64,000 bases of DNA from Clostridium sp. MB40-C1 (GTDB taxonomy: Bacteria; Bacillota; Clostridia; Clostridiales; Clostridiaceae), in assembly GCF_030913655.1 (NCBI RefSeq), contig NZ_CP133189.1, positions 248,001-312,000 on the forward strand. The letters run 5' to 3'. Below the pieces are notes generated by a model. The model saw only the letters and a list, made by a program, of their open reading frames with translations. It had not been told where the DNA came from and made no database searches. A program made the translations under genes and the position numbers. Below are positions 30,144-37,063 of the stretch, piece after piece (position 1 is the first letter of the stretch; the number at the start of each line of letters is the position of its first letter).

Positions 30144-30172
30144 TTGCTATTAGAATAGTATGTCTGTATAAT
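30144..30172 (+). promoter_or_regulatory. Promoter for the ECF operon
   Basis: TTGCTA (30144-30149), 17-bp spacer, TATAAT (30167-30172), followed within 15 nt by the riboswitch-like leader. Confidence 0.6.
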
Positions 30173-30179
30173 ATATGTG

Positions 30180-30275
30180 AAATAATAAGCGATAAGTATA
30201 AATTACATAAGGGAATGTGTTTTGAATCCACATTAGCTTTGCCCGAGCTCTCCATGCTCGGATTTTTACTTGTAT
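30180..30275 (+). ncRNA. Cobalamin-riboswitch-like leader with terminator
   Basis: 30209-30245 reads AAGGGAATGTG, TTTTGAATCCAC, ATTAGCTTTGCCCG. This matches the conserved core of cobalamin riboswitches (aGGGAAt ... gAATCC ... aGCtGCCCg), including the L4/P5/P6 layout, but the usual 3' GCCACTG box is not seen, so it would be a short or variant class. It runs into a terminator hairpin CCGAGC-TCTCCAT-GCTCGG (30244-30262) with ATTTTT. The downstream genes are a probable corrinoid transporter, which supports the call. The remaining 30276-30362 has only a small hairpin and the ecfT ribosome binding site. Confidence 0.55.
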
Positions 30276-30362
30276 AGGGAATTATCTAGTGTAAGGGTTT
30301 AGTATTAAATTCAAACTACTTTATTTTTGAAGTAGAAAATTACCTAATATAAGGAGGCAATA

Positions 30363-31223
30363 ATGGATAAGGTGCCTTTGAAATTGCATGTGATGACTGT
30401 TTGCATAATAGTGGCAGTATTAATGATTATTATTTTTTTTACTAATAATCCAATTATTTTATTTTCCGTGTTTATTTACTGTAGTATAGTTTTTATGTAT
30501 ACAAGGAATAAGGATAAGTTAGTAAATGGTTTTATTTATTTTATACCTTTCTTATTTGTTTCTGTAATAATAAATTTTTTATTTATAACAGAAGGAAAAA
30601 TAATTTTGTTTCAGATAAGTGATAAAGTATTTACTTTAGAATCATTAATATATGCTTTGATATTTTCTTTTAAACTTCTTTTGATAATTTATATATTTAT
30701 GATTTTAAATATTTTAATTGATTCGGATAATGCAATTTCTTTTTTTTCTAGTAAAATACCTAAGACGACTTTACTTATAATGATAGGAATAAAGTTCTTT
30801 CCTATAATGAAGGATAGAATTAATAGTTTAAAAAATACTTATACAATAAGAGGAGTAGAATTTAACAGTAAAAGCTTGAAAGAAAAAATTTCAGCTTATG
30901 TACCTGTTTTTTCAATATTATTAGAAAACTCACTAGAAGGTGCTTTTGATATAGGGGAAGCTGCTTATGTTAGAGGTTTTCTAAGTAGTACAAGAACTAT
31001 ATATGACAAGCAAAAATTTCAATACAAAGACTACATTTTATATGCTGAATGTGTTGTTACTGTAATATTTAGTATAATATTTAAGATATATAGTTTTTTT
31101 GAGTTTGATATTTATGGAGGTATTAATATTAACAAAGCTATAAATATAGAAGTTATAAGTATTTTTATAAGTATTTTGGTTATAGGATTTACAAGTGTTT
31201 TTAAAGTAAATAGAATGGAGTAG
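30363..31223 (+). CDS. ecfT: ECF transporter transmembrane component EcfT
   Basis: A 286-residue EcfT with about 5-6 membrane helices. The coupling region contains the two short Arg-Gly motifs that contact the ATPases: TIRGVEF (about 161-167) and YVRGFLS (about 201-207). In ECF transporters EcfT joins two ATPases to a substrate-specific S component. Start ATG after AAGGAGG. The next gene starts 4 nt after its stop, so they are cotranscribed. Confidence 0.88.
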   Translation: MDKVPLKLHVMTVCIIVAVLMIIIFFTNNPIILFSVFIYCSIVFMYTRNKDKLVNGFIYFIPFLFVSVIINFLFITEGKIILFQISDKVFTLESLIYALIFSFKLLLIIYIFMILNILIDSDNAISFFSSKIPKTTLLIMIGIKFFPIMKDRINSLKNTYTIRGVEFNSKSLKEKISAYVPVFSILLENSLEGAFDIGEAAYVRGFLSSTRTIYDKQKFQYKDYILYAECVVTVIFSIIFKIYSFFEFDIYGGININKAINIEVISIFISILVIGFTSVFKVNRME

Positions 31224-31227
31224 TTAA

Positions 31228-32838
31228 ATGAAATATATAAATATAAGCAACTTGAACTACTATTATCCTAGAAGTAACTTTAAGGCTTTGAATAATATAA
31301 ACTTAACTATTAATAGAGGAGAAATAGTATTTATTGCAGGAAAATCAGGTTCGGGCAAATCCACTTTGGCTAAATGTATTTCAGGATCTATACCTAATTT
31401 TTATGGAGGAAAGATATCAGGGGAAATAACTATCAATGATCTTTCTATTCATAAAATAAGCGATAGTGATAGAAGTAAAGAGATTACTATGGTTTTTCAA
31501 GATCCAGAAAGACAACTTCTTATGAATAAAGTTCACAGAGAAATAGCATTTGGTTTGGAAAATATAGCTGTAGAAACAAAGAATATAAAGAGAAGGGTAT
31601 TTGAAGCACTTCAGTTCTCTAACATTTTAGACTTAGCATATAGAGACATATCCACTTTATCAGGAGGAGAAAAGCAGAAGGTAGCTATTGCTTCAGCTAT
31701 AGCTTATTTACCTCGATGTATAATTTTGGATGAACCTATATCACAATTAGATCCTCCAGCGGCAGAAGAAATTATAAAGTTAATAAAAAAGGTAAATGAA
31801 GAACTTGGAATTACAATAATAGTAATTGAGCAAAAAATAGATAAATGGTTTGATATAGCAGATAGAATATTAATAATGAAAGAAGGAAGTATAGTTTTTA
31901 GTGGAGATAAAAAAAATTTATATGATACTGAGGACAAGTATATAAGAGATTTTCTTCCTTCATACATGAAATTTTCTAAATTTATAGGTATGGATAAAAT
32001 GCCTTTAAGTTTTAAAGAGGCAAGATTAAAAATAGAGGAGTTAGGTTTTAATCTAATGGAAAGAAAAAGAAAAAGTATTAATTTTTCAAATATACTTATT
32101 CAAATTAAAAAACTGACCTGTGGTTATGAAAATGTATCAGTTTTAAAAGATGTTAGTTTAGATATAAAAGAAGGAGAATTTGTAAGTATATTAGGAGCAA
32201 ATGGATCAGGTAAAAGTACTTTGTTAAAGACTATAATGGGATTTATAAAATACAATGGAAGCATAAAAGTTTTAGAGGAAGAGGTAAAGAAAATTAAAAC
32301 AAGAAATATATCTAAGAAAATAGGATATGTTTCTCAGAATCCCAATGATTATATTTCTAAAGATACAGTATATGACGAATTGAAATTTACATTAGATAAC
32401 TATGGCATAAAAGATTGTGAAATTATAGATGAAACATTAAAGAAATTAGATATCTATGAAATTAGGGATAAGAACCCTAGAGATATAAGTTCAGGAGAAA
32501 GACAAAGAGTTGCAATTGCATCTATTTTAGTGATGAAACCTAAAATTTTAATATTAGATGAACCTACTAGAGGACTAGATTATAATGTTAAAATAAAGCT
32601 AGGTAAAATTTTAAAAGATTTAAACAATAAAGGAACTACTATAATTATGGTAACTCATGATATAGAATTTGCAGCTAAATACTGTACAAAGTTTACTCTT
32701 ATGTTTAATGGAGAAATAGTATGTTGTGGGAATGATGAGGATGTTTTAGGAGAAGGTATATATTATACTACTGAAATTAATAAATTAGTTAGAAATAAAA
32801 ATCCTAAAATATTTACTTTAGATGATGTTTTTAAGTAA
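31228..32838 (+). CDS. Fused ECF ATPase (EcfA-EcfA')
   Basis: 536 residues containing two complete ABC ATPase domains. Domain 1 has Walker A GKSGSGKST (38-46), signature LSGGEKQKVAIAS, Walker B CIILDEPISQLDP. Domain 2 has Walker A GANGSGKST (323-331, Lys329), signature ISSGERQRVAIAS, Walker B ILILDEPTRGLD. Many ECF systems use two separate genes; here one chain supplies both. It energises uptake through EcfT and the S component encoded next. Both domains keep all catalytic motifs, so both should hydrolyse ATP. Confidence 0.92.
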   Translation: MKYINISNLNYYYPRSNFKALNNINLTINRGEIVFIAGKSGSGKSTLAKCISGSIPNFYGGKISGEITINDLSIHKISDSDRSKEITMVFQDPERQLLMNKVHREIAFGLENIAVETKNIKRRVFEALQFSNILDLAYRDISTLSGGEKQKVAIASAIAYLPRCIILDEPISQLDPPAAEEIIKLIKKVNEELGITIIVIEQKIDKWFDIADRILIMKEGSIVFSGDKKNLYDTEDKYIRDFLPSYMKFSKFIGMDKMPLSFKEARLKIEELGFNLMERKRKSINFSNILIQIKKLTCGYENVSVLKDVSLDIKEGEFVSILGANGSGKSTLLKTIMGFIKYNGSIKVLEEEVKKIKTRNISKKIGYVSQNPNDYISKDTVYDELKFTLDNYGIKDCEIIDETLKKLDIYEIRDKNPRDISSGERQRVAIASILVMKPKILILDEPTRGLDYNVKIKLGKILKDLNNKGTTIIMVTHDIEFAAKYCTKFTLMFNGEIVCCGNDEDVLGEGIYYTTEINKLVRNKNPKIFTLDDVFK

Positions 32839-32934
32839 AATTAGAAATGCAAAATATGTTGAAGTATTAGAATGGCTAGACATCGGATAAACAGAATTCT
32901 TAGGAGTTATAAAATATAAATGAGGATAATTAAT

Positions 32935-33621
32935 ATGAGGAAAATTAGCATAGGTGTTGCAATAAGTACGTTGATAATCCTTGTGGTTTTCAGTGTAAAA
33001 TTTGCTAACAGTAAAAATTTAGGTATATTAATTACTTTAGGGGTAGTATTAACATTATTTTTTAGTTACTTTTATTTTGAAAAAAGTTCTATGGGAACTA
33101 AGGAGATAGCATTAATAGCAACCCTAGGTTCTTTTGCAGCAGTTTGTAGAGTACCGTTTGCTATTATTCCAAATGTACAGCCAACTACTTTTTTAGTGGC
33201 TATTTCAGGGCTTGTATTTGGAAGTTATGAAGGGTTTTTAGTTGGAAGTTTAGCAGCTTTTATATCTAATATTTTTCTTGGACAGGGGCCATGGACCCCA
33301 TGGCAGATGATGGCATGGGGTATAGTTGGAGCTATTTCTGGATTAATAGGTAAGACAAATAAAAAAATTTCTAGTGAAAAGTTTTCAGTTATATGTTTTG
33401 CGTATGGAATTTTATTTGGATGGATTACAAACTTATGGTTTATTGTAAGTGGTTTAAAAATAATAAATATAAAAACAATAATAGCAGCTAACTTAACATC
33501 TCTAACTTTGGATATAATGCATGCAGGAGGAAATTTTATATTTTGTATTATATTTTTTGATAATATTTACAAAGTATTATTTAGATTTAAACAAAAGTTA
33601 GAAATTACTTACTTAGAATAG
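32935..33621 (+). CDS. ECF transporter S component, probable corrinoid specificity
   Basis: About 228 residues with 7-8 hydrophobic helices. ALIATLGSFAAVCRVPFAIIP and LGQGPWTPWQMMAWGIVGAI are features of S components of the CbrT-like group (cobalamin). ATG 32935 is preferred (GAGGAT 7 nt upstream); the in-frame ATG at 32920 is the alternative. Context supports corrinoids: a cobalamin-riboswitch-like leader before ecfT and two DUF4430 proteins downstream. Substrate assignment remains an inference. Confidence 0.8.
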   Translation: MRKISIGVAISTLIILVVFSVKFANSKNLGILITLGVVLTLFFSYFYFEKSSMGTKEIALIATLGSFAAVCRVPFAIIPNVQPTTFLVAISGLVFGSYEGFLVGSLAAFISNIFLGQGPWTPWQMMAWGIVGAISGLIGKTNKKISSEKFSVICFAYGILFGWITNLWFIVSGLKIINIKTIIAANLTSLTLDIMHAGGNFIFCIIFFDNIYKVLFRFKQKLEITYLE

Positions 33622-33627
33622 TATCAT

Positions 33628-33672
33628 TAGGTGCTAGGTGCTAGGTGCTAGGTGCTAGGTGCTAGGTGCTAG
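33628..33672. repeat. Tandem heptamer repeat TAGGTGC, 6.4 copies
   Basis: Six exact TAGGTGC units and a partial seventh, starting 7 nt after the S-component stop. A short microsatellite, probably slippage-prone. Confidence 0.95.
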
Positions 33673-33680
33673 AAAATGAT

Positions 33681-33880
33681 GATTTTCTTCATGTGGTCAG
33701 AAAATCTTCCAAAGAGAATCGGTAGTTGCTAATGGCTAATCACTAAAAGAGCTACAAAAGCTTTTAAATAAAAGTGTTTAGCGACTAGAGATTAGATATT
33801 ACAGAGAAAAAGAGAATCGGTAGTTGCTAGTCACTAATCGTTAAAAGAACCACAAAGGTATTTAGCAACTAGAGATTAGG
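33681..33880. repeat. Hairpin and duplicated 70-85 bp unit before the DUF4430 gene
   Basis: 33681-33706 (GATTTTCTTCATGTGGTCAG...AAAATC) is the same hairpin type found twice in each copy of the large element at 14892 and 50716. Next come two diverged direct copies of a CTAG-rich unit (33711-33796 and 33808-33880), each starting AGAGAATCGGTAGTTGCTA and ending ACTAGAGATTAG. No gene is seen in 33622-33946. Confidence 0.65.
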
Positions 33881-33946
33881 GATTAAAAAATAAAATTAAT
33901 CAGTGTAGTAGATATTACACTATGTATTAAAGGGAGTGATGTAATA

Positions 33947-35761
33947 ATGAAAAAAAGCAATTGTGGAAGAATCAGGGCAATGAGTTTTGTTTTATTGTTT
34001 ACTTTTTTTATAACCCAAGGAATACTAGGGAATTTTACAAAAGTAAAAGCTGTAGAAAATATTTCAGTGGAAGTGTTGGTTGAGAGCCACAACAAGGTTT
34101 TAACATTAGATAAAGCTAATAAAAACAATGCATATGAAGCATTAAAAGAAGTGCTAGATAAGAATAATATAAAAATAGAAGCCCAAGATAGTCAGTATGG
34201 TAAATATATTTCTTCTATAGCAGATGTGAAAGCAGGTAAATTTGGTGGATATGATGGATGGCTTTATGCAGTCTATAGAGATGGGAAATATGAAAATATA
34301 ATGACTTCTATTGATGGATTTACTTTGAAAAATGGAGATAAACTTATAGTATATTATGGAGATATGGGTACTTTGCTTGCAAACAAAATTCAGTATTCTA
34401 CAAAAGAAGCTAACAAAGAGTTAACTATATCTTTAAATAATTATTATGAGGATTGGCAAACTAAAAAAGAAATTGTTCAACCAATAAAAGGAATACAAGT
34501 TAAATTAGATGGAAAATCAGTAACTTTAGATGAAAATAAAATTTATGTAAAAGAAGGACTTGATAAAGGAGAACATTCATTACAATTAATAGATTTTAGA
34601 GAAGATAAATGCCCATTAGTAGTAAACGATACTATAAAATTCAAATTAGAAGAAACAGCAGAAATTCCAGGAAATAATAAAGATGAAGATTCTACAGGGA
34701 ATATAAATGCTTCAATAGATATAGATAAGGAAATTGCTATCCTTTCAAAATATATAACTAAATCAGAAAAATATGATTTATGGGCTGAAATTAGTATGAA
34801 TAAATTAGGTATAAAACCTAACGATAAATTTATAAATAGCAGAAATCAATATATAGAGGATAATGCTAAAGAAATAGTTAAAAATGGAACGGAAGATTTT
34901 ACCAATATAGAATTAGAAAAATTAATGATGACTTTAGTAAATAGTGGATATAATCCAAGCAGTTTTCAAGGACATGATTTAGCAAAAGATTTATATAATA
35001 GAGATTTAAAAGATTATTTAATTAATGATAAAGTGTTTGCTCTTATAGCATATGATTATTGTAATATAGATAATAAATATAATATAAATAGAGATAAATT
35101 AATTCAATCTTTATTGAGTAGTAAACTTTCTTATAAATTTGAAGACAAAGATATAGTAGGATGGGCTTTTTATGGCGATAAAATTGACCCTGACATGACA
35201 GCAATGGTAATAACAGCTTTATCTAAATATTATAATAGCAACTCAAAAGTAAAAGAAACTGTGGATAAAGCTATAAAAACTTTAGCTTATTTTCAAAATG
35301 AAAATGGATATATACAAAGCAATTATGGTATATCAAGTGAAACATTATCAACAGTTATTGTAGGATTGAAATCTATAGGGATAGATGTTGAAAAGGGAGA
35401 ATTTGCAAAGAATAAAGGAAATCTTCTTTCAACACTAGTGTCATTTAAAGATGATAATGGGGTATACAAACATCTTCTCCAAGATAAAAATGGTAATTAT
35501 ATGTCTTCTGAACAAGCTTTAAGAGCGTTAATAGCTATTAAAGAATCAAAAGGAGAAAAATACAATTATTACAGTAATAATATAAAAACTGAAAATTTAA
35601 GAGAATATACTTTAGAAGAAAGTATTGCAAAAGATCAAGACTTAAAACAGCTTCCTAAGACAGGGAGTTTAGTGGATACTAATGTATTAATTGGTTTAGG
35701 AATATTATTTATTTTATTAGGAGTGTCATTACAATTAAGAAGTAGAAGGAAAATTAACTAA
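33947..35761 (+). CDS. LPXTG-anchored surface protein: DUF4430 plus alpha/alpha toroid (corrinoid-capture candidate)
   Basis: 604 residues. A signal peptide spans 1-35 (hydrophobic SFVLLFTFFITQGIL). A DUF4430 domain (about 37-125, with FGGYDGWLYAVYRDG) is related to the C-terminal beta domain of transcobalamin and intrinsic factor. A second small beta domain follows (about 140-215). About 245-545 is a repeated helical region of terpenoid-cyclase/intrinsic-factor toroid type (DPDMTAMVITALSKY, SSETLSTVIVGLKSIG, SSEQALRALIAI). Sortase motif LPKTG is at 569-573, then a membrane helix and RSRRK tail. It holds both domain types of human intrinsic factor, in reverse order. Downstream of an ECF transporter with a cobalamin-type leader, it probably captures corrinoids at the wall. 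RBS AGGGAGTG. Confidence 0.85.
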   Translation: MKKSNCGRIRAMSFVLLFTFFITQGILGNFTKVKAVENISVEVLVESHNKVLTLDKANKNNAYEALKEVLDKNNIKIEAQDSQYGKYISSIADVKAGKFGGYDGWLYAVYRDGKYENIMTSIDGFTLKNGDKLIVYYGDMGTLLANKIQYSTKEANKELTISLNNYYEDWQTKKEIVQPIKGIQVKLDGKSVTLDENKIYVKEGLDKGEHSLQLIDFREDKCPLVVNDTIKFKLEETAEIPGNNKDEDSTGNINASIDIDKEIAILSKYITKSEKYDLWAEISMNKLGIKPNDKFINSRNQYIEDNAKEIVKNGTEDFTNIELEKLMMTLVNSGYNPSSFQGHDLAKDLYNRDLKDYLINDKVFALIAYDYCNIDNKYNINRDKLIQSLLSSKLSYKFEDKDIVGWAFYGDKIDPDMTAMVITALSKYYNSNSKVKETVDKAIKTLAYFQNENGYIQSNYGISSETLSTVIVGLKSIGIDVEKGEFAKNKGNLLSTLVSFKDDNGVYKHLLQDKNGNYMSSEQALRALIAIKESKGEKYNYYSNNIKTENLREYTLEESIAKDQDLKQLPKTGSLVDTNVLIGLGILFILLGVSLQLRSRRKIN

Positions 35762-35777
35762 AACTTTAATTTCTGAC

Positions 35778-35959
35778 TGAGAAAATTACATAGTTCCATA
35801 AGTACATAACTTCATGCAAGTTTTATTATTCACTGCTTCGAAAATTTCTCTTTTTAGGGTCAGAATAAACTCAAAACATAGGGAAAGAGAAATTTTAAGG
35901 CGTTATTCACAATAAAGCTTATATTACGTATTTGAAGTTTTAATTATGTAATCTCCTCA
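35778..35959. repeat. R1 fold-back repeat, copy 5
   Basis: Ends TGAGAAAATTACATAGTT and AATTATGTAATCTCCTCA; inner arms GCAAGTTTTATTATTCACTGC and AAGGCGTTATTCACAATAAAG; stem TTTCTCTTT/AAAGAGAAA; loop AGAATAAACTCAAAACATAG. It starts 17 bp after the DUF4430-toroid gene and is the best-preserved copy. Confidence 0.85.
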
Positions 35960-36024
35960 ACTATAAATAGCCCTATAATTTATTTTTTATGAATTACGGG
36001 GCAAATTAAATTAGTTATGTTTTT

Positions 36025-36284
36025 ACTCAACTTTCGCAGGAAAGAAGTAAATGCAGATATAAAATATATATTGCTATAAACCACTTCACTTCGCAAAGTA
36101 ATTCTAAGTCCTAAAAATGTATCATTACTAAAAAAATCAAACTCGTTAATACTCAAACATGATTTTTTCTTAACGTAATAATACATTTTTAGAACAAGAA
36201 TTACTAATTGCTTATTCAAATGGTTTCTACGCAATATATATTTTATATCTGTTTTAGGCTATTTGTGTTCTGCGAAAGTTGAGG
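36025..36284. repeat. R2 fold-back repeat (MITE-like), copy 2, 260 bp
   Basis: Same termini and length as 28884-29143, about 96 percent identical. It is bordered by TTTTT on both sides (GTTTTT|ACTCAAC and GAGG|TTTTTA), consistent with a short A/T target duplication. It lies between the two DUF4430 genes. Confidence 0.85.
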
Positions 36285-36346
36285 TTTTTATAAATAAAAT
36301 TCATTAGATTAATTGATTGTATATATATGTTTAAGAGGTGAAATGC

Positions 36347-37063
36347 ATGAAAAAAAAATTAAAATTGATTGTAGTAATGATTGCTTTATGTATAAGTGTA
36401 ATATTAGGAGTTAAGCACTATCAAAGTAATATTAATGAATCAAAAGATAATAAAAACAGTATAGTTTTAGAGAATTATGAGATAAATAAACAGGAACAGA
36501 ATGGAAATTCTTTTAAAACTGAAATTAAACATGAAGAAAAAAAAGAAGAGAAAAAAGATGTAGTAGAGAATAATAAAAGTAGTAAAGTTGAAACTAAAGA
36601 GAATCCTAAAAGTCAATCAAATAATAGTTCAAAACAGCAAAGTAAGAATACTATAGTAAAACAAACAAGTAAAGAACAAAGAAATAGTAATCAAGTAGGT
36701 AACAAAGAAACAGACAGTAATAAAACAAATAATAAAGAAGTTCAGCAAATAAAAAATGTTTTAATAAAAGATGAAGTAAGTGGAAAAGTAATAGGAAATA
36801 TTTATTGTAATTCAGAAAATAGAAGTGTAGCAGATGTTACTATAGAGGTTTTGAATAAAATGGGTATAAGGTATAAAGCAGTAGGAAGTGGGGATACAAT
36901 ATATTTTTCTTCAATAGATGGAATAAAAGAAAGATCTCAAGGTCCTTTAAGTGGGTGGTGTTATTATGTAAATGGAAGCAAGCCACCAGTAGGGGCTGGG
37001 TCATATAAATTGAAAAAAGGAGAAAAGATTCAGTGGATATTTAAAAAAGATGGAGTGAATTAG
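36347..37063 (+). CDS. Membrane-tethered DUF4430 protein
   Basis: 238 residues. An N-terminal anchor/signal helix (LKLIVVMIALCISVILGV), then about 100 residues of Lys/Asn/Ser/Glu/Gln-rich disordered linker, then a C-terminal DUF4430 domain (about 140-238, GPLSGWCYYVNGSKPPVGAG and KKGEKIQWIF). There is no sortase or lipobox motif, so it is probably held by its N-terminal helix with the domain at the end of a flexible stalk. It resembles the beta domain of transcobalamin-type proteins and follows the LPKTG DUF4430 protein. A hand-over role from wall to transporter is a reasonable guess. The ATG is preferred because the in-frame GTG 9 nt upstream is part of GAGGTG. Confidence 0.82.
   Translation: MKKKLKLIVVMIALCISVILGVKHYQSNINESKDNKNSIVLENYEINKQEQNGNSFKTEIKHEEKKEEKKDVVENNKSSKVETKENPKSQSNNSSKQQSKNTIVKQTSKEQRNSNQVGNKETDSNKTNNKEVQQIKNVLIKDEVSGKVIGNIYCNSENRSVADVTIEVLNKMGIRYKAVGSGDTIYFSSIDGIKERSQGPLSGWCYYVNGSKPPVGAGSYKLKKGEKIQWIFKKDGVN

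Follow-up and report, generated by a model that had tools for sequence, protein, structure and literature searches.

A CbrT-type ECF transporter locus with transcobalamin-like surface proteins in Clostridium sp. MB40-C1: a probable corrinoid capture-and-import system

Gram-positive bacteria have no outer membrane with BtuB, and little is known, to our knowledge, about how they capture scarce corrinoids outside the membrane. In Bacteroides, the surface proteins BtuG and BtuH capture B12 and pass it to a transporter, a way of working similar to the one considered here; they differ in their Gram-negative outer membrane, TonB transport and folds. We describe a locus of Clostridium sp. MB40-C1 in which a dedicated energy-coupling factor (ECF) transporter stands with two surface proteins, W1 and W2. 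It lies in a window of 64,000 nucleotides (the whole stretch that was analyzed, contig NZ_CP133189.1, positions 248,001 to 312,000), to which all coordinates refer. The closest described transporter is ECF-CbrT of Lactobacillus delbrueckii (PDB 6FNP), which transports cobalamin and cobinamide (PMC5997447) and shares with the locus the family of its S component, EcfT and ECF ATPases, and a B12 context. Such modules have already been called CbrTUV in print (PMC6722938 and PMC8123684), cbrT and cbrV serve as names in PMC9306216, and a Dehalobacter paper on corrinoid starvation deals with BtuFCD-type and CbiMNQO transporters (PMC4285132). In L. delbrueckii, CbrT relies on a common, shared ECF module and is encoded in nrdJ-cbrS-cbrT-pduO, whereas the window locus has its own module together with candidate receptors that are wall-anchored (W1) or tethered (W2).

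The second relevant group is that of the animal B12 carriers. Transcobalamin, intrinsic factor and haptocorrin combine an alpha/alpha toroid with a beta domain of the DUF4430 type, as does the family described here. TCN proteins have been described as carrying DUF4430 at their C-terminus (PMC4350170). A bacterial domain with the fold of the W1 domain has been solved, RUMGNA_00854 of Ruminococcus gnavus (PDB 3u7z; template modeling score (TM) 0.66); it is labeled "putative metal binding protein" and its listing gives no corrinoid role. Both the CbrT transporter and the link between DUF4430 and transcobalamin are already known. The association of surface receptors with the CbrT system appears to be new, and our literature search, which covered few subscription journals, returned no description of transcobalamin-like surface receptors of this system.

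An earlier note on this DNA had proposed an ECF system for corrinoid uptake coupled to surface proteins resembling transcobalamin and intrinsic factor. We consider it probable that the locus is a corrinoid capture-and-import system, most likely a variant of the known CbrT-ECF transporter, because of its homology to CbrT, the riboswitch control of orthologous loci and the comparison of structures; the proposal has to be revised for the leader, the domain order and the specificity of the toroid. The five genes, all on the + strand after a divergent TetR gene, are those listed in the earlier note, and Pfam, NCBIfam and AlphaFold bear out each of them. The transporter consists of EcfT (30363..31223; Pfam CbiQ, E 3.1e-8), a 536-residue EcfAA' in which a pair of ECF ATPases is fused (31228..32838; two ABC_tran stretches; NCBIfam ECF_ATPase_1, E 1.8e-117) and an S component (32920..33621).

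The S component carries the argument about substrate. A profile built from 22 orthologous S components and searched against the PDB found CbrT of L. delbrueckii (6fnp_A) as its best match (E 2e-17), followed by 4hzu_S at E 0.064. The closest solved homologue of the family is thus a B12 carrier, which speaks against the possibility, raised in the earlier note, that such homologues transport something else, and the membrane part is, as judged by sequence, a member of the known CbrT-type ECF transporters. Import of another substrate, such as riboflavin, haem or another tetrapyrrole, is very improbable: Pfam's best label for the protein is the generic ECF-riboflavin family and a haem ECF transporter has been reported (PMC7299338), but CbrT is far ahead of every other solved S component and cobalamin riboswitches precede the orthologous genes.

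To describe the setting of the orthologues, we surveyed 194 genomes of the family, of which 82 had an S match at E<=1e-5, and picked 20 relatives, all with the locus, from among the stronger of these matches. The cobalamin riboswitch RF00174 was found at the locus in 19 of them, the only one without it being C. brassicae (G092). In 16 relatives the distance from the riboswitch to the downstream EcfT gene is 75-394 bp, with a score in 15 cases above the Rfam cut-off of 31.5 bits and in one (G062) below it, at 26.8 bits; in three others (G106, G144 and G046) it heads a longer operon. Across the 20 genomes, 49 of 51 DUF4430 matches follow a riboswitch on the same strand at no more than 15 kb, against about 0.51 expected by chance, and both exceptions belong to C. 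brassicae; since these matches form 23 contig-strand clusters in genomes selected for the locus, they do not amount to 51 independent tests. When genome contigs were scanned more widely with the alignment of S components, 77 loci were obtained, most from Clostridia and Bacilli and a few from metagenome bins of actinobacteria and archaea. Of these, 75 have DUF4430, 68 the toroid and 67 both. A co-occurrence of gene set and riboswitch, which the earlier note had suggested checking, is borne out here too: using model R1, built from 16 sister cobalamin riboswitches, a riboswitch was detected upstream of S in 65/77 loci, at a median distance of 5.6 kb and in 24 of them within 3.3 kb, and the other 12 include short contigs and operons possibly extending beyond the examined stretch.

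Eighteen loci with weaker S homologues (L155-L172; E 6.5e-20 to 9.4e-6) failed as a negative control, since they also contain DUF4430 (10 loci), the toroid (4) and riboswitches (9); they look, from their gene content, like further CbrT-type loci. Five of them (L156, L159, L160, L162 and L163) have a riboswitch-linked CbrT-like S and neither DUF4430 nor toroid genes in the examined stretch; such loci may thus be able to do without the surface receptors. The cluster also occurs on plasmids. One of L. curvatus carries an LPXTG toroid protein, DUF4430, EcfT, an ATPase and S, with no riboswitch detected by model R1. The 37-kb plasmid pMF1298-5 of Lactiplantibacillus plantarum has a homologous cluster together with the B12-dependent NrdJ, an adenosyltransferase and cobS; between its S and DUF4430 genes sits a gene annotated as "fucose-binding lectin II" (L174:12638-13690) that matches the toroid model at E 7e-22.

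The two surface proteins carry the only DUF4430 domains of the MB40-C1 genome. W1 (33947..35761, +) comprises a signal peptide, a DUF4430 domain (~57-138), a beta linker domain, an alpha/alpha toroid (~256-555) and an LPKTG wall anchor. Pfam places DUF4430 (PF14478, cut-off 23.8) at residues 62-138 (E 2.9e-5, 24.9 bits) and recognizes the anchor (PF00746, E 4.4e-5, 23.8 bits, cut-off 20), and the protein has the LPXTG motif, hydrophobic stretch and positive tail of a sortase-anchored protein. The toroid is unnamed by Pfam and was modeled by AlphaFold; W1 has no match to Pfam Cobalamin_bind (PF01122). W2 (36338..37063, +, with ATG 36347 a likelier start than 36338) has an N-terminal hydrophobic membrane anchor, a long polar linker forming a putative stalk and a C-terminal DUF4430 domain at residues 167-236 (E 2.6e-16, 60.2 bits). 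In SEED, genes resembling W2 may already come under the heading "additional lipoprotein component of predicted cobalamin ECF transporter".

Comparison of structures links these proteins to the animal carriers domain by domain. The AlphaFold model of W1 (28 sequences, mean predicted local distance difference test (pLDDT) 89.8, predicted TM (pTM) 0.60) matched transcobalamin 2v3n in a Foldseek search of the PDB (E 2.2e-4), along with intrinsic factor 3kq4, haptocorrin 4kki, complement proteins and cyclases. Complement C3 and C5 were its top matches, with TM-scores of 0.10-0.26 that we read as multi-domain noise. Against the isolated beta domain of transcobalamin (5no0), the W1 DUF4430 domain gave a TM of 0.67 over 109 columns with a root-mean-square deviation (rmsd) of 3.2 (Foldseek). 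For the toroid-DUF4430 unit of a related Paenibacillus locus, L116 (14 sequences, pLDDT 87.0, pTM 0.73), the three animal carriers transcobalamin, intrinsic factor and haptocorrin take Foldseek ranks 1-15 in the PDB (E 1.9e-10 to 1.3e-8), and a farnesyltransferase follows at E 1.4e-5. The TM of this unit to 5no0 is 0.77 over 108 columns. The relationship of DUF4430 to the C-terminal domain of transcobalamin, cited in the earlier note, is thus supported in both models, and a structure comparison of the kind suggested there puts the DUF4430 domain of W1 next to the beta domain of transcobalamin without making the toroid specific to intrinsic factor.

The order of domains varies within the family. 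Its architectures include DUF4430-toroid proteins with LPXTG, toroid-DUF4430 proteins, giants in which both domains occur several times, and sets in which the toroid and DUF4430 are on different proteins. W1 does have DUF4430 first, the reverse of the animal carriers; this is not general, as the toroid-first, animal order occurs in some Bacilli and Caloramator loci (e.g., L113, L118 and L116). W1 differs from the animal proteins further in its extra beta domain, its wall anchor and a toroid whose sequence is nearer to cyclases. One frame of 699 residues from a Bacillota metagenome bin (L149:277-2376) combines an S component, an extracellular toroid and repeats that we read as SLH-like (S-layer homology).

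These proteins could have another role at the surface, the transporter carrying corrinoids while W1 and W2 serve in adhesion or bind a B12-carrier protein of a host or neighbor rather than B12 itself. LPXTG anchors and giant multi-toroid homologues would suit adhesins, and complement thioester domains, which are seen among the matches, have the toroid fold as well. We nevertheless regard this as improbable, given that DUF4430 genes are nearly all found behind B12 riboswitches in the 20 genomes, that DUF4430 has as its structural neighbor the beta domain with which transcobalamin binds cobalamin, and that S and toroid are fused in L149.

Several findings weigh against a corrinoid capture-and-import system of this kind, and some of them concern the folds. 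The best PDB sequence match of the DUF4430 profile is transcobalamin, at a weak E of 0.033, and searching the PDB with just the sequence of the W2 domain returned nothing useful. The two-domain match of L116 has a global rmsd of ~22 Å; its domains therefore match singly and in order, not in their mutual placement. The nearest neighbors of the toroid, by sequence and by fold, are terpene cyclases and prenyltransferases, with the profile matches to class II terpene cyclases covering only parts of these enzymes. Among 14 toroid-DUF4430 relatives, Pfam finds Prenyltrans in 11 and Cobalamin_bind in one (E 0.0032). The toroid fills both lists of VIA-align matches. In one of them squalene-hopene cyclase, at Z 22.0, ranks above intrinsic factor 3kq4_A (Z 19.4, 338 aligned, rmsd 21.6); in the other, transcobalamin is not among the 50 matches listed, which excludes nothing. 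The toroid had been assigned the fold of the N-terminal domain of intrinsic factor. AlphaFold does predict an alpha/alpha toroid, but terpene cyclases and prenyltransferases score equally well or better, and the modeled toroid alone resembles intrinsic factor no more than it does terpene cyclases. For this reason the specific link to the animal carriers rests not on the toroid alone but on the DUF4430 domain, the combination of two domains and the B12 context. The same neighbors, and a conserved DxDxT motif in the toroid, would fit an extracellular enzyme resembling terpene cyclases. This is the least probable of the explanations we weighed: the toroid is secreted and wall-bound, where prenyl substrates would not be expected, and it accompanies DUF4430 and a B12-type S in 67/77 loci.

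The remaining adverse findings concern this species. The leader of the operon had been described as resembling a cobalamin riboswitch, a description that does not hold as written. With Rfam, the window has no match to a cobalamin riboswitch that reaches the gathering score, and RF00174 is absent at E<=10 from the leader and from the whole genome; seven weak Rfam matches in the leader are chance families, none of them a riboswitch. Model R1 aligns with positions 30201..30295 (+) at 16.9 bits (E 6e-5 for 421 bases, filters off), and it gave no match in the window in the large locus search at E<=0.01. Because it retains the outer strands and one hairpin and lacks the invariant core (CCCGCNACUG, CCACU, GGGAAGG and the B12 box), the leader is, by its sequence, a truncated and broken remnant rather than a working switch. 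A terminator-like hairpin followed by ATTTTT lies within it (30243..30261, +; one seen against 0.1 expected). The C. brassicae leader has the same truncated form and the same terminator-like stem. Short cobalamin riboswitches also occur at L106:7303-7390 and L110:7257-7340 (84-88 nt against 138 model positions), lacking part of the aptamer and keeping the core; shortening has therefore occurred more than once. Before the leader, a consensus scan found a sigma-70-like promoter (TTGCTA-17-TATAAT, 30144..30172, +, 10/12 positions matching), which is weak evidence; the scanned stretch holds seven such sites against a shuffle mean of 3.6.

The MB40-C1 genome keeps an adenosyltransferase of the BtuR/CobA type, the PduO type being absent from all seven genomes of the genus searched. 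It encodes a single protein with the B12-binding domain PF02310 (C1:2138214-2138570, L073), which we read as radical-SAM-like. Two to four such proteins are encoded by each of the six further genomes examined from this genus, one of them always in a frame of ~800 residues, and C. brassicae has two. With a broken riboswitch, none elsewhere in the genome and only one B12-binding-domain protein, the need for B12 in this species may be small. The ratio of nonsynonymous to synonymous substitution rates (dN/dS) relative to C. brassicae is 0.27 for EcfT, 0.21 for EcfAA', 0.09 for S, 0.19 for W1 and 0.43 for W2, the fastest evolving of the five, compared with 0.05 for the neighboring NAPRT gene. All five values are below 0.5; the genes are kept by selection, W2 least.

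The intergenic gaps have features of their own. Between S and W1 (33628-33892) there are TAGGTGC tandem repeats and two diverged 84-nt copies. The gap between W1 and W2 (35762-36346) is ~580 bp long, against 112 bp in C. brassicae (L033/L074), and contains inverted repeats, one pair nested within the other (24 nt at 36026/36260, and a perfect pair of 21 nt at 36054/36231), which suggest the insertion of a small element.

A transporter on its way out in this species, working poorly or not at all, would account for the loss of the riboswitch core with no other copy in the genome, the one PF02310 protein where C. brassicae has two, the repeats and inverted-repeat element in the gaps, and the dN/dS of W2. 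Such decay is unlikely overall, yet there is real room for it, or for weak function, in this species. Against it stand the intact reading frames of all five genes, dN/dS values of 0.09-0.27 for the other four, the retained adenosyltransferase and the persistence of the same leader in two species.

If the locus is a corrinoid capture-and-import system, it would operate as an ECF importer dedicated to corrinoids, meaning B12 and possibly its relatives, with extracellular receptors of its own. We infer that W1, sortase-anchored in the wall, and W2, tethered to the membrane by its stalk, bind corrinoid outside the membrane through their DUF4430 and toroid domains. They would thereby raise the local corrinoid concentration and pass the ligand, perhaps from wall to membrane, to the S component of the CbrT type; import would then be driven by the EcfT-EcfAA' motor, which turns this component over. 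When B12 is plentiful, the operon of most relatives would be shut by a cobalamin riboswitch. In MB40-C1 and C. brassicae, where the riboswitch core is lost and the genes are intact, expression would probably no longer follow B12 by that route.

A widespread transcobalamin-like surface family fixed to a B12 ECF transporter would supply a capture step in Gram-positive bacteria and would explain the still unnamed DUF4430. It would also offer a bacterial source of, or parallel to, the animal B12 carriers. That intrinsic factor, transcobalamin and haptocorrin descend from the two-domain receptors of bacterial CbrT-ECF systems, or share a B12-binding ancestor with them, is a tentative idea that we find less likely than not. 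If true, the two-domain B12 trap would already have been in use in bacteria, in both domain orders and in wall-anchored, tethered and S-fused forms.

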